A stretch of 64,000 nucleotides of DNA, from positions 1,474,662 to 1,538,661 of the forward strand of contig NC_000961.1 in NCBI RefSeq assembly GCF_000011105.1, in the 5' to 3' direction. Of this stretch, positions 44,204-49,260 are shown piece by piece. The position numbers were made by a program, and so were the translations under genes. The notes beneath the pieces were generated by a model. The model did no database searches. It was not told where the DNA came from and saw nothing but the letters and a program-made list of their open reading frames with translations. Numbering within the stretch: the first letter of the stretch is position 1; each line of letters opens with the position of its first letter. This DNA is from Pyrococcus horikoshii OT3 (GTDB taxonomy: Archaea; Methanobacteriota_B; Thermococci; Thermococcales; Thermococcaceae).

Positions 44204-44644
44204 TCACCGAGTATCCAGGAACCTCTCAAACTCTCTGAGAACCTCTAGCTGATCCTCCGTCTCTACAGCACTTGGTTTAAGGAGTCTTACCCTCCTGAGG
44301 CCTTCTCTAAGAGAGAGGCCCTGAGAATACATAAGCCATGCAACTGCTACAGTCCCACTCCTCCCACTACCACCATAGCAGTGGATGTAGACCTTTTTCC
44401 CTTCCTTCACCTTTTCCTCTATCCATTTAACTATCTTATATAATTGACTAAGAGAAGGGGCCGTAAAATCCGGAATCGGAGAATGCAAGACATCAACTTT
44501 CTTTTTAAGTTCCTCAATATCATACACCAGCTCGAAGTCTTCCACTAAAACTACAAAAGCGTCAAATTTCTCAACAAGCTCATCTATTTCATCCTCATAG
44601 GGCATCCTACCAAATGCAACGTTTTCATCAATAAACTTCTCCAT
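44204..44644 (-). CDS. Dual-specificity / tyrosine protein phosphatase
   Basis: A 146-residue cysteine phosphatase with the signature loop HCYGGSGRSGT (C89 nucleophile, R95 phosphate-binding) and a likely general acid D59 in PIPDF. Pyrococcales and Thermococcales have one such small phosphatase, reported to act on phosphotyrosine and phosphoserine in proteins. It ends just upstream of the 5S promoter and is read from a start beside the divergent racemase gene. Confidence 0.93.
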   Translation of the reverse strand: MEKFIDENVAFGRMPYEDEIDELVEKFDAFVVLVEDFELVYDIEELKKKVDVLHSPIPDFTAPSLSQLYKIVKWIEEKVKEGKKVYIHCYGGSGRSGTVAVAWLMYSQGLSLREGLRRVRLLKPSAVETEDQLEVLREFERFLDTR

Positions 44645-44715: not shown

Positions 44716-45396
44716 ATGAAGAAGATCGGAATTATCGGAGGGACAACTCCAGAATCTACCCTGTATTATTATAAAAAGTACATTGAGATAAGCAGAGAAA
44801 AATTTGAAAAGTACTTTTACCCAGAGCTTATAATTTACTCAATAAACTTTAAGGAGTTCTTCCAGAACCCCGAAGGCTGGGAAGGACGAAAGAAAATACT
44901 TATTAATGCAGCTAAAGCCCTGGAAAGGGCAGGAGCAGAATTAATAGCCTTTGCCGCTAATACTCCGCATTTGGTTTTTGACGACGTTCAAAGAGAAGTT
45001 AACGTTCCAATGGTAAGCATAATAGATGCAGTCGCTGAGGAGATCCTTAAAAGAGGAGTCAGAAAAGTCCTCCTTCTAGGGACAAAAACGACTATGACCG
45101 CTGACTTTTATATTAAAACATTAGAGGAGAAAGGCTTAGAAGTCGTTGTACCAAATGACGAAGAAAAGGAAGAGCTCAATAGGATAATATTTGAGGAACT
45201 GGCCTTTGGAAACCTAAAGAATAAAGAGTGGATAGTGAGACTTATAGAAAAGTACAGAGAGAGTGAGGGAATCGAAGGAGTTATTCTAGGATGTACCGAG
45301 CTACCACTTGCAATAAAGCAGGGGGATGTAAGCGTTGAAGTATTTGACTCGGCCGAAATCCATATGAGGAAGCTAATAGAGTTAGCTTCAGAGTGA
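44716..45396 (+). CDS. Aspartate/glutamate racemase homologue lacking one catalytic cysteine
   Basis: A 226-residue Asp/Glu racemase-fold protein. MKKIGIIGGTTPEST opens the first half-domain, and GCTELPLA (C193) carries the second catalytic cysteine. At the first site, where active racemases have CNT, this protein has AANTPH (A81). Without that base the usual two-cysteine racemisation is unlikely. It may have one-way activity, a different substrate or no activity. The stop codon overlaps box C of a C/D sRNA. Confidence 0.88.
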   Translation: MKKIGIIGGTTPESTLYYYKKYIEISREKFEKYFYPELIIYSINFKEFFQNPEGWEGRKKILINAAKALERAGAELIAFAANTPHLVFDDVQREVNVPMVSIIDAVAEEILKRGVRKVLLLGTKTTMTADFYIKTLEEKGLEVVVPNDEEKEELNRIIFEELAFGNLKNKEWIVRLIEKYRESEGIEGVILGCTELPLAIKQGDVSVEVFDSAEIHMRKLIELASE

Positions 45397-45443
45397 TGAG
45401 CCCGCGCAGCGCTGATAGATGATGAAGATTTTAAGTGCTGACT
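45391..45443 (+). ncRNA. C/D box guide sRNA overlapping the racemase stop codon
   Basis: C GTGATGA (45393-45399), 12-nt guide gcccgcgcagcg (45400-45411), D' CTGA (45412-45415), 3-nt gap, C' ATGATGA (45419-45425), 12-nt guide agattttaagtg (45426-45437), D CTGA (45438-45441). This is a fully canonical 12-3-12 archaeal C/D sRNA. The racemase stop codon TGA (45394-45396) lies inside box C, so the RNA is probably processed from the mRNA. Its AT-rich second guide contains TTTTAAG, the likely TATA box for the ferritin-like gene at 45469. Confidence 0.9.
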
Positions 45444-45468
45444 TCTAACCTCATATGGGGTAATATCT

Positions 45469-45774
45469 ATGCTCGCCGAAAAGCCCTACCTGGTTGAAAG
45501 AGAGAAACCACTCTCAAAGAAAGAGATCGCCCAAGCGCTAAGGTGGGCCATAGAAGCTGAGCTGGATGCTATAAACTTTTACGAGCAATTAGCAGAACTA
45601 ATAGAGGATGAAAAAATAAGGCATGTATTCTATGATGTTGCCAATGAAGAGAAAGAGCACGTTGGAGAATTTCTAGCTGTTCTGCTTGAAGTAGATGAGG
45701 AACTTGCAGAATTCATAAGGAAAGGCTTTAAGGAAGTTGAAGAGGAAACAGGAATCAAGGCTAAGCTACAGTGA
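45469..45774 (+). CDS. Free-standing encapsulated-ferritin-like protein
   Basis: A 101-residue ferritin-like helical protein. E31 (AELDAINFYE), E61 and H64 (ANEEKEHVGE) correspond in spacing to the E32/E62/H65 ferroxidase residues of encapsulated ferritins (EncFtn). Its sequence also lines up along its whole length, from memory, with the N-terminal ferritin-like part of the P. furiosus encapsulin capsid fusion, ending (TGIKAKLQ) where the capsid part would begin. No capsid gene follows; a convergent ABC exporter does. It should oxidise and help store iron, either free or delivered to an encapsulin encoded elsewhere. Confidence 0.85.
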   Translation: MLAEKPYLVEREKPLSKKEIAQALRWAIEAELDAINFYEQLAELIEDEKIRHVFYDVANEEKEHVGEFLAVLLEVDEELAEFIRKGFKEVEEETGIKAKLQ

Positions 45775-45788
45775 CTTCCTTTTTCTTT

Positions 45789-47528
45789 TTAAACTTCCTG
45801 AACTTGAGAGGTATAAAGCCTGTAGAAGTAGCCCTTCTTTTCTAAGAGAAGCTTTGGAGGACCCTCCTCAATTATTCTTCCATCCTTAACAACGATTACC
45901 TTATCAGCAAACCTCGTTATTGACAATCTATGAGCGATAATTATACTAGTTCTCCCCTCCATTAACTTTAGCATTGCATTCTGTACAAGTTGCTCGGTCT
46001 TAGGATCGACGCTTGAAAGCGCTTCATCCAAAATGACTATGTCAGGATCCTTTAACAAAGCCCTCGCCAAAGATATTAATTGTCTCTCCCCTAGGGATAA
46101 TAACTTCCCCGCTTCACCTGCACTAGTCTTATATCCATTTGGTAACTTCATTATGAACTCGTGAATTCCCAGCTCCTTGCAAACCCTTATCACATCTTCT
46201 TCTCTAGCTTCTGGGTTTGCCATGAGGATGTTTTCCATTATGGTTCCTGGAAATAGGTATGTTTCCTGGGGAACATAACCTATTCTCCTTCTAAGGCTTT
46301 TCCTACTTATCTTTCTCCCCTCTATTCCATCGTAGAAAATATCCCCTTTAGTTGGATCATAGAAGCGCATAATCAGATTAGCCAAAGTTGTCTTTCCAGC
46401 TCCTGTCTTTCCTACTATTGCTACTTTAGATCCCGAAGGTATTAATAAGTTAATATCCTTAAGAACAGGTCTCCCCCTTTCATATTCAAACCATACATTT
46501 CTAAATTCTATTTCACCATTAAGCCTCTCAACGTTTATTCCGTTGTAATCTTCAACGTTTTCATCGTCCAAGATTTCATATATCCTTTCAAGAGCAGCTA
46601 AAGCTGATTGCAAACTATCATACATACTTACAACATTATTTATGGGGCCTCTAAACCTTTGAGCGTACTGAATGAACGCGACCACAACACCAATGCTCAC
46701 AGCTCCTTTATAAGCCAGGTAACCTCCGTATGCTATAACGGCTATAACGGAAAGTAAGCTCGTAATATTCATAAGTGGCCAGAAAACTCCCATGTAAACT
46801 GCAACCCTTAGATATGCTTTTATTGTCTCTAAGGAAACTTTTGAAAATTCTCTTTCCACGTCCCTTTCTTTTCCAAATGCCCTAATTGTCTCTATTCCGG
46901 CCACACTCTCTTCAACAACGCTCGATATCTTTGCTATTTTCTGCCTAGTTTCACGATATGCCCTCCTCATTTTACCTCCAAAGTAATAGGCCACGAGCAC
47001 CATTAAAGGAACGCTAGCTAGAGTTACTAGCGTTAGTTTAACGTCTAGGAGAAACATTGCGATAATAATTCCCGCTAAGCTCAACAAACTTCCTAATCCC
47101 CCGAGGAGTCCTGAAACTAGAACATCATTGACTATGTTTGTATCGTTAATTATCCTCGAAACTAGATCCCCTGTTGATTTCTCTTTAAAGAAATCTAGGT
47201 TTGAAATTAATATCTTCTCATGAAGCTTGCTTCTCAACCTCTTAAGAACCCCTTGGCCAAAAACTTCAGTATAATAAGTCTGAAGAGTCATGAAGAACCA
47301 TTGGCCAATGAGGGATAGGAGATATAAAAGTGTCACAAACCATAACTCTCCATACTTCCCTGGAACTATATAGTTATCTATAGCAATATGAAGGACGTAG
47401 GGCGATGCCAAGTTGGCAATGGCAGATCCTACTATACTAATTATAACTACTACTAGAGTCTTCTTTTCGGAGAGTGCTTCCCTAATGAACCTAATAAGAA
47501 GTGAAAATGATGATTCGTTATTTCTCAT
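45789..47528 (-). CDS. ABC exporter subunit with consensus ATP site
   Basis: A 579-residue half-transporter: six membrane helices (residues about 20-310) then an ATPase domain with IVGKTGAGKTT, the signature LLSLGERQLISLARALL, and VILDEALSSVD with the catalytic glutamate intact. It pairs with the gene upstream (overlap of 11 bases) to form a heterodimeric multidrug/lipid exporter of the TM287/288 or BmrCD kind. I use the ATG at 47528 with GGTG 6 bases upstream. It is the catalytically complete half. Confidence 0.93.
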   Translation of the reverse strand: MRNNESSFSLLIRFIREALSEKKTLVVVIISIVGSAIANLASPYVLHIAIDNYIVPGKYGELWFVTLLYLLSLIGQWFFMTLQTYYTEVFGQGVLKRLRSKLHEKILISNLDFFKEKSTGDLVSRIINDTNIVNDVLVSGLLGGLGSLLSLAGIIIAMFLLDVKLTLVTLASVPLMVLVAYYFGGKMRRAYRETRQKIAKISSVVEESVAGIETIRAFGKERDVEREFSKVSLETIKAYLRVAVYMGVFWPLMNITSLLSVIAVIAYGGYLAYKGAVSIGVVVAFIQYAQRFRGPINNVVSMYDSLQSALAALERIYEILDDENVEDYNGINVERLNGEIEFRNVWFEYERGRPVLKDINLLIPSGSKVAIVGKTGAGKTTLANLIMRFYDPTKGDIFYDGIEGRKISRKSLRRRIGYVPQETYLFPGTIMENILMANPEAREEDVIRVCKELGIHEFIMKLPNGYKTSAGEAGKLLSLGERQLISLARALLKDPDIVILDEALSSVDPKTEQLVQNAMLKLMEGRTSIIIAHRLSITRFADKVIVVKDGRIIEEGPPKLLLEKKGYFYRLYTSQVQEV

Positions 47529-49260
47529 ATTCCTCACCTATAGCTCTAATCATTTCGCTAAATGCTCCACCCTTCTTGACGAGCTCGCTAGGTTTTCCTT
47601 CCTCAATTATCCTTCCATCTTTTATTACAATCACCCTATCCGTCAGTTTAACTAAGGAAAGTCTCTGAGATACTATTAGAGCAGTTCTACCCTTTAGTAT
47701 CTCTTTTAGGTCTTCAACCAATCTTTTCTCCGTTTCAGCATCTAGATTAGAGACGGGATCATCAAGGAGGATAATTTTGGGATCTAAAAGGAGAGCTCTT
47801 GCAAGGGCTATTCTCTGTCTTTGTCCCCCGGATAGCGTTACACCTTTTTCACCAACTATAGTGTCATACCCGTTGGGAAGGGAGGATATAAAGTCATGTA
47901 TCTTTGCTATTTTTGCAGCCCTTATTATTTCATCCATTTTAGCATCAGGCTTTGCGAGTGCGATGTTTTCCCTTATGCTCCTGTTAAAAATGAAAGGTTC
48001 CTGAGGAACATAGGCCACTATTCTCCTTAGGCTTTCTGTCTTTATCTTCTTCACATTAACTCCATCTATTAACACTTCCCCCTTATCAGGCACATAAAAC
48101 CTTGCAATAAGCTTTAGAATACTACTCTTCCCGGATCCAGGAGGACCTACTATGAGAACCTTCTCTCCAGGAGATACTTTGAGATTTACACCCCTAAGCA
48201 CAGTTCTTCCAGTATGATAAGTAAGCCAAACATCCCTAAATTCTACCTCCCCCTTTGGATCATTAATCTCTACAGCGTCGGGTGCGTCAATTGCTTTGGG
48301 GGCCGAATCAATAACCTCAAACAATCTTGCCGCCGCAGCTAAACTTCTCTGTATATCACCAATAGTGAATCCCAAAGCACGAAGGGGCCACATCATTGTA
48401 AGCATGTAAGTTAAAAATGCAACGAGTTCACCAACAGTTAAGGTTTTGGCAATTATAGCTTTCCCCCCATAGTAGAGCATTGCACTCATCGCTAATCCCA
48501 AAATCAAAAATGGAGCATTCCCATAAAGAGCAGTTATTTTAATGGCATCAATATTTAGGGAATAAAGGTTCTCATTTTCTTTAGAGAATTTTTCCTGGAT
48601 ATTTTCTTCAACCGAAAGTGATTTAATAGTCTTTATTCCAGCTATTGTTCCAGTGGCTATTGAGGCTATCACCCCAGTTTGGTGTCTTATTTTATCATAT
48701 ATCGGCCTAACTTTAGTTGCATAAGTTGTATTTAAAAGAACCACAACAGCTATAGTCCCTAAAGCAACTAAGCTAAGGAAGACGTTCATTCTAATCATAT
48801 AATACAAGGATACAGCTATTAGGAATATTGAATAAACGAACATTCTTATTCGAAAAGAAAGGAACCTCGTTATCCTCTCTGTGTCATTCGTTATTCTGCT
48901 TATTAGCTGACCAGAAAAAGTCTTATCAAAAAATTCCATTCTATGCCTCTGTATAGCCTTAAAGGCATCCATTCTAATGTAATATACTGCATGCTGAGCG
49001 GATTTTACAAGTAAATATCTCCCCGTGAAACTAAATATTCCGTTAAATACTGCAACAAGCAAAATCAAAAGGCCATAATTGAAGGCAACTGAATACTTTT
49101 TGGTGACGATCCCTTTATCTATAGCATTCCTAATTAACACGGGGATTACCCCGTTAGTGTACGACATCAAGAGAACTAACCCTATTCCACCAATAAAATG
49201 CCATCTATACTCTCTTAAATAGCTTAACAGTCTTTCCAGTTGCCTTAGCGAACCATCCAT
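47518..49260 (-). CDS. ABC exporter subunit with degenerate ATP site
   Basis: A 580-residue half-transporter with six membrane helices and an ATPase domain: VGPPGSGKSS, LSGGQRQRIALARALL, then IILLDDPVSNLDAET, where aspartate replaces the catalytic glutamate after Walker B. In asymmetric heterodimeric exporters one subunit shows exactly this change, leaving one ATP site slow. It is the first gene of the two-gene reverse-strand unit. Confidence 0.93.
   Translation of the reverse strand: MDGSLRQLERLLSYLREYRWHFIGGIGLVLLMSYTNGVIPVLIRNAIDKGIVTKKYSVAFNYGLLILLVAVFNGIFSFTGRYLLVKSAQHAVYYIRMDAFKAIQRHRMEFFDKTFSGQLISRITNDTERITRFLSFRIRMFVYSIFLIAVSLYYMIRMNVFLSLVALGTIAVVVLLNTTYATKVRPIYDKIRHQTGVIASIATGTIAGIKTIKSLSVEENIQEKFSKENENLYSLNIDAIKITALYGNAPFLILGLAMSAMLYYGGKAIIAKTLTVGELVAFLTYMLTMMWPLRALGFTIGDIQRSLAAAARLFEVIDSAPKAIDAPDAVEINDPKGEVEFRDVWLTYHTGRTVLRGVNLKVSPGEKVLIVGPPGSGKSSILKLIARFYVPDKGEVLIDGVNVKKIKTESLRRIVAYVPQEPFIFNRSIRENIALAKPDAKMDEIIRAAKIAKIHDFISSLPNGYDTIVGEKGVTLSGGQRQRIALARALLLDPKIILLDDPVSNLDAETEKRLVEDLKEILKGRTALIVSQRLSLVKLTDRVIVIKDGRIIEEGKPSELVKKGGAFSEMIRAIGEEYEK

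Follow-up and report, generated by a model that had tools for sequence, protein, structure and literature searches.

A free-standing EncFtn protein in Pyrococcus horikoshii as a probable shell-independent ferroxidase

Pyrococcus horikoshii OT3 encodes an encapsulated-ferritin (EncFtn) protein that is not joined to an encapsulin shell. Proteins of this type oxidise iron and usually act within a virus-like shell made of protein. The gene occupies positions 45469-45774 (+) of the window, the whole stretch of 64,000 nucleotides that was analysed; it has an ATG start, encodes a complete protein of 101 amino acids (aa) and carries neither a capsid domain nor a targeting peptide. By sequence comparison and structure prediction the product is an intact EncFtn domain, a half-ferritin with a predicted two-helix hairpin. 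We consider it probable (roughly 0.6) that the protein is a full member of the EncFtn family which operates without a shell, as a soluble decameric ferroxidase. Its homology, predicted fold, di-iron ligands and gene integrity are established, as are the absence of a Family 1 capsid and the order-wide occurrence of the free form.

The genome is a single contig of 1,738,505 bp (1.74 Mb). Upstream of the gene lies an Asp/Glu racemase gene (44716-45396, +), which is foreign to the usual EncFtn neighbourhood, and downstream a convergent ABC transporter gene (45789-47537, -). The 72-bp gap 3' of the racemase gene contains a putative TATA-like box, ATTTTAAGT (45428-45436, +), identical in genome G004, and a putative Shine-Dalgarno-like GGGGT (45457-45461, +) 7 nt 5' of the EncFtn ATG. 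The ABC transporter gene ends 14 bp past the EncFtn stop codon, so there is no space for a capsid remnant. A small dual-specificity protein phosphatase gene (44204-44644, -) adjoins the racemase gene; among its Pfam matches are several DSP-PTPase families that were defined recently.

The best PDB match of the protein in phmmer searches was the EncFtn of P. furiosus (5N5E, E 3.4e-27 over 5N5E residues 4-98), followed by the P. furiosus fusion protein (2E0Z, residues 1-100, E 7e-27) and then M. xanthus EncC, a ranking that was unchanged with a profile built from 41 relatives. The initial annotation had recognised a free-standing EncFtn homologous to the fused P. furiosus domain, matching the fusion up to the start of the capsid part and then stopping. 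These matches, together with the fold and ligands described below, confirm the homology, and the gene ends where the alignment to residues 1-100 of 2E0Z does. The protein passes the Pfam EncFtn-like model (30.7 bits; cut-off 27) and is also above the cut-off of the broad Pfam Rubrerythrin model (31.1 bits). The top-ranked NCBIfam models are EncB_fam and ferrit_encaps, at scores under their curated cut-offs (70.6 against 90 and 55.7 against 125 bits, respectively); EncB_fam is matched by all 41 aligned family members, which is well beyond what chance would give. The protein scores far under the cut-off of the NCBIfam rubrerythrin model and reaches 16.8 bits against the ferritin/Dps model PF00210, whose gathering score is 24.5. 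With one EXXH motif rather than two, a length of 101 aa and no rubredoxin domain, it does not have the makeup of a rubrerythrin. The AlphaFold2 model (pLDDT 92, pTM 0.80) packs two long helices and a short one at the C-terminus into about 100 aa: helix 1 is predicted at residues 17-44 (45517-45600, +; pLDDT 98-99 over most of its length), helix 2 at residues 48-75 (45610-45693, +) and the C-terminal helix at residues 77-94 (45697-45750, +), seven residues before the end of the protein. Foldseek placed 5N5E first (E 3.8e-8, TM 0.86), then EncC and Rru EncFtn. Neither of the assignments that had been set against an EncFtn identity was seen: Pfam EncFtn-like is over its cut-off alongside the broad Rubrerythrin model, no clean assignment to a distinct rubrerythrin or DUF family emerged, and the prediction is an EncFtn hairpin rather than a monomeric four-helix ferritin. 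The protein also fits the definition of the s-FLPs, short EncFtn proteins without a targeting peptide (PMC11202242).

The ligands E31, E61 and H64, noted at the outset for their EncFtn-like spacing, are present at these positions and are invariant in 85 of 85 Thermococcales sequences and in 41 of 41 sequences that include other orders. E31 (45559-45561, +), a predicted ferroxidase-centre ligand, opens the single E-x6-Y motif (E31...Y38), and E61-K-E-H64 (45649-45660, +) forms the EXXH ferroxidase motif described in PMC11202242. Also invariant across the 41 sequences are L24, R25, A30, L32, D33, A34, Y38, D56, A58, E60, K62, G66, E67 and F68. Free-clade sequences carry E63, L79, Y/F82 and E93 against A63, Q79, E82 and L/M93 in the fused form; at residue 63, glutamate is typical of the free clade and alanine occurs in every fused sequence. 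These substitutions could reflect altered assembly or chemistry. The gene is under purifying selection, with dN of 0.05-0.11 against dS of 0.74-0.99 between P. horikoshii and other Pyrococcus species, a dN/dS of about 0.1 (YN00 figures only, the NG86 dS being saturated). The suggestion that the gene is a remnant of a fused encapsulin gene, either a fragment or a pseudogene in decay, can accordingly be rejected and is given almost no credence. Later capsid losses prove that such truncated genes arise, but this one has its own start and stop, a conserved length, wholly invariant ligands and a low dN/dS, and it is intact in dozens of species.

No capsid gene had been noticed near the P. horikoshii gene, and this was confirmed for the whole genome, which has no match to Linocin_M18 (PF04454) or Phage_capsid (PF05065), control genomes being positive. 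The sole match in a six-frame search of the genome with the full fused protein was the EncFtn domain at 45469-45774, and the hallmark of a Family 1 cargo system, a PF04454 encapsulin fused or adjacent, is absent from the genome. The one qualification is that the genome encodes two Family 4 A-domain or 'mini-encapsulin' proteins (PF08967, HK97 A-domain, about 100 aa), at genome positions 1163267-1163542 and 1592509-1592742, far outside the window; such proteins are reported in all Pyrococcus and Thermococcus genomes (PMC8346489). In the wider set, the capsids of ten fused genes were compared by tblastn (E<1) with the surroundings of 85 loci, up to 18 kb each, and matched only the ten fused genes, and a permissive capsid search of up to 1.2 kb 3' of fourteen free genes gave chance-level matches only. 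A read-through capsid match with two stops at G090 was not upheld in the permissive search, and a capsid remnant behind the P. horikoshii gene was likewise discarded, there being no capsid similarity downstream. A C-terminal encapsulation peptide, which the initial annotation had proposed looking for, did not turn up: the motif [LF]x[VI]xx[LI] occurs in the last 16 residues of no free sequence. With no Family 1 shell and no such motif, delivery of the protein in trans is disfavoured. The PF08967 proteins could provide a shell that had been missed, Family 4 proteins having been proposed to complex with enzymes of their own operons (PMC8346489), but neither PF08967 gene is near the EncFtn gene, and we regard this arrangement as highly improbable.

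The fused form, described as the common archaeal one (PMC11202242) and initially taken to characterise the Thermococcales, proved not to be the rule in this order. An EncFtn match is present in 87 of 94 Thermococcales genomes and in all 74 of good quality, and the PF04454 capsid in 10 of the 94 (9 of the 74), always fused to EncFtn in a frame of 346-378 aa. The 85 genes extracted comprise 10 fused and 75 free ones. Since almost all relatives lack a shell, the shell-fused version is the exception in Thermococcales. The free genes are nearly all 99-114 aa long, with a common end point and no targeting peptide; G062, from a draft genome, is truncated or frameshifted. Twelve genomes from other families of the class also encode free EncFtn proteins of about 95 aa (46-48% identity to the P. 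horikoshii protein in those aligned), and none of them matched the capsid portion of the fused protein used as query. We found no paper on free thermococcal EncFtn proteins within an incomplete coverage of the literature.

The tree of the Thermococcales sequences gathers every fused one into a single group of 15 (support 100/99) that includes four free genes: G079 and G084, which lie beside the fused G075, and G002 and G093. Forcing the 11 fused rows into a single clade was rejected (AU p 0.0003), and the capsid was therefore probably lost about three times within the fused group (G079/G084, G002 and G093). One case can be followed in the DNA. The flanks of G075 and G079 are 90-92% identical on both sides, and homology runs through codon 101, after which G075 has 787 bp with the capsid part (304-1090) and G079 has 170 bp without detectable similarity. 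This pair of loci (L046 and L103) is a recent, mapped loss of the encapsulin shell. The upstream Fur and Dps-like genes of the G075 locus are also missing from the G079 locus.

Whether the P. horikoshii gene itself descends from a fused one bears on its origin. In the outgroup-rooted maximum likelihood (ML) tree, the main free clade (100/99), which includes the P. horikoshii gene, lies within the fused grade as sister to the fused G007/G046 (81/82), and the ML tree implies one further capsid loss for this clade. A narrow-pattern capsid-alignment contig search gave only three Thermococcales MAGs and none of the crenarchaeal fused domains, which would be the best outgroup; a comparison of capsid and EncFtn trees among the fused genes had too few resolved forks to be informative. 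The alternative is that the ancestral Thermococcales EncFtn was free, that a single lineage later acquired the capsid by fusion and that the P. horikoshii gene lost nothing. The unfused ancestor raised in the initial annotation thus keeps part of its ground: the rooted tree speaks against it, and capsid loss clearly occurs, but a tree that unites the 15 fused-type rows in one clade survives the AU test (p=0.188, and p=0.22 with a wider set) and all 12 class-level relatives used outside Thermococcales are free. We rate a primitive free form as somewhat short of even odds; it is compatible with a soluble ferroxidase.

Free genes usually have the same locus as fused ones, made up of GNAT, rubrerythrin/archaeoferritin-like, Fur-type, Dps-like, EncFtn and further rubrerythrin-like genes, to which a peroxiredoxin or flavodiiron protein gene is added in some cases. 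At least one redox or iron gene lies within 3 kb of 69/75 free and 10/10 fused genes. The P. horikoshii gene is one of six exceptions, standing outside a redox cluster between the racemase and ABC transporter genes, and the argument from context therefore rests on its relatives. PF00210 ferritin/Dps proteins are present in 66 of the 74 good Thermococcales genomes; none is found in P. horikoshii or in the Pyrococcus genomes G005, G006, G008 and G010. Their absence has been reported for P. horikoshii and P. abyssi, with archaeoferritin proposed as the store (PMC3401498).

With neither ferritin nor Dps encoded in the P. horikoshii genome, the most fitting reading of the protein is a soluble ferroxidase, decameric and with no iron store of its own. 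It would form a ring-shaped decamer like the excised P. furiosus domain, which is a D5 decamer (PMC8346489), and at its subunit interfaces E31, E61 and H64 would make up di-iron ferroxidase centres. In the cytosol, O2 or H2O2 would oxidise Fe(II), and the Fe(III) would then be released or handed on. The role may be to quench Fenton chemistry within the oxidative-stress set of an anaerobe (rubrerythrin, Fur-type regulator, Dps-like protein, peroxiredoxin and flavodiiron protein) rather than to fill a dedicated cage. Archaeoferritin or rubrerythrin-like proteins are the likely iron sink in P. horikoshii; alternatively, plain consumption of O2/H2O2 and Fe(II) may need no separate sink. A soluble ferroxidase is the simplest mechanism because R. 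rubrum EncFtn without its shell oxidises iron and does not mineralise it (PMC5012862).

The di-iron site could instead act as in rubrerythrin, reducing H2O2 with rubredoxin electrons, with iron oxidation incidental. The score above the Pfam Rubrerythrin cut-off and the frequent rubrerythrin-family neighbours in relatives agree with such a peroxidase, but the protein is half the length, has one E-x6-Y/EXXH pair against two and no rubredoxin domain, and is ranked as EncFtn first by EncB_fam and the fold search, with NCBIfam rubrerythrin far behind; we think this unlikely. If iron induced the protein to assemble, as archaeoferritin of P. furiosus is reported to do, it might store iron on its own. 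Such storage would suit a genome without ferritin and Dps (our search; PMC3401498) and the metal-dependent assembly of EncFtn (PMC5012862). An open ring, however, has no closed cavity, and the failure of shell-less Rru EncFtn to mineralise iron (PMC5012862) also counts against storage, which seems very unlikely.

The closest known system is the Flp/EncFtn-fusion encapsulin PF1192 of P. furiosus (2E0Z; excised domain 5N5E). It is homologous to the P. horikoshii protein over all 101 aa (about 53% identity) and has the same ligands and predicted fold, whereas the P. horikoshii protein lacks the capsid domain and linker; fused relatives usually have the same gene neighbourhood as free genes. The s-FLPs, such as Nitrosomonas europaea NE0167 (3K6C; PMC11202242), are also free proteins of about 95-100 aa with the EncFtn fold and no targeting peptide, although 3K6C is only 19% identical to the P. 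horikoshii protein. That class is described as mainly bacterial and possibly encapsulated (PMC11202242), whereas the P. horikoshii protein is archaeal and its genome has no Family 1 shell. Bacterial EncFtn cargo (Rru_A0973, M. xanthus EncB and EncC) has the half-ferritin fold and E/E/H di-iron site in common with it but, unlike it, carries C-terminal targeting peptides and is loaded into encapsulin. Archaeoferritin (AFR, PF1196), which has orthologues in P. horikoshii (PMC3401498), and the rubrerythrins share the E-x6-Y and EXXH di-iron motifs, but they are four-helix proteins in which the motif pair occurs twice, against once in the P. horikoshii protein; their genes neighbour EncFtn in many relatives' loci.

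IMG/VR contigs also carry genes for EncFtn-like proteins, roughly 100 aa long and sharing the E/E/H ligands in those aligned; 13 such loci were identified at first and then 29. A search of 50,697 phage records yielded none, and records of plasmids and cultured phages likewise gave no match. At about 10 of the 29 viral loci, near-duplicates included, the gene lies among T4-type neck or head-completion genes (neighbour types gp4, gp2, gp13, gp14 and gp15-like). A gp4-type head closure gene and an end-protector-like gene stand beside it in L192/L193, and Hc2 and a gp15-type tail sheath stabiliser in L204/L205; L206, L209 and L211-L213 have homologues of these neck-module neighbours. The EncFtn-like domain lies within longer viral ORFs in L181, L184/L201, L198 and L190, that of L184 being 925 aa with a NUDIX domain. 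In an EncFtn tree that also includes viral and bacterial cargo rows, most of the viral sequences cluster with the free archaeal sequences from the class level (98/99); the branches are long and no root can be taken from them. The protein of T4-type phages could be a virion-associated half-ferritin. A broader conjecture, which we hold to be quite unlikely, is that EncFtn is fundamentally a ferroxidase lineage that needs no shell and is shared by archaea and T4-type phages. Its partnership with encapsulin would be secondary and repeatedly abandoned, and may have been put together from an EncFtn carried by a phage and a capsid of phage origin.

For the Thermococcales, these findings describe an order in which every good genome has kept EncFtn while the shell is absent from about seven in eight, and in which some members, P. 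horikoshii included, lack ferritin or Dps as well. EncFtn alone is a ferroxidase unable to mineralise iron (PMC5012862), and this combination of a universal EncFtn, a mostly absent shell and, in some genomes, no ferritin or Dps makes the role of a cage-less EncFtn directly testable; the order includes a genetically tractable member in which to ask what EncFtn does without a cage. The matching loci of fused and free genes, together with the roughly three probable capsid losses within the fused group, provide a natural experiment on the uptake and loss of a virus-derived organelle.
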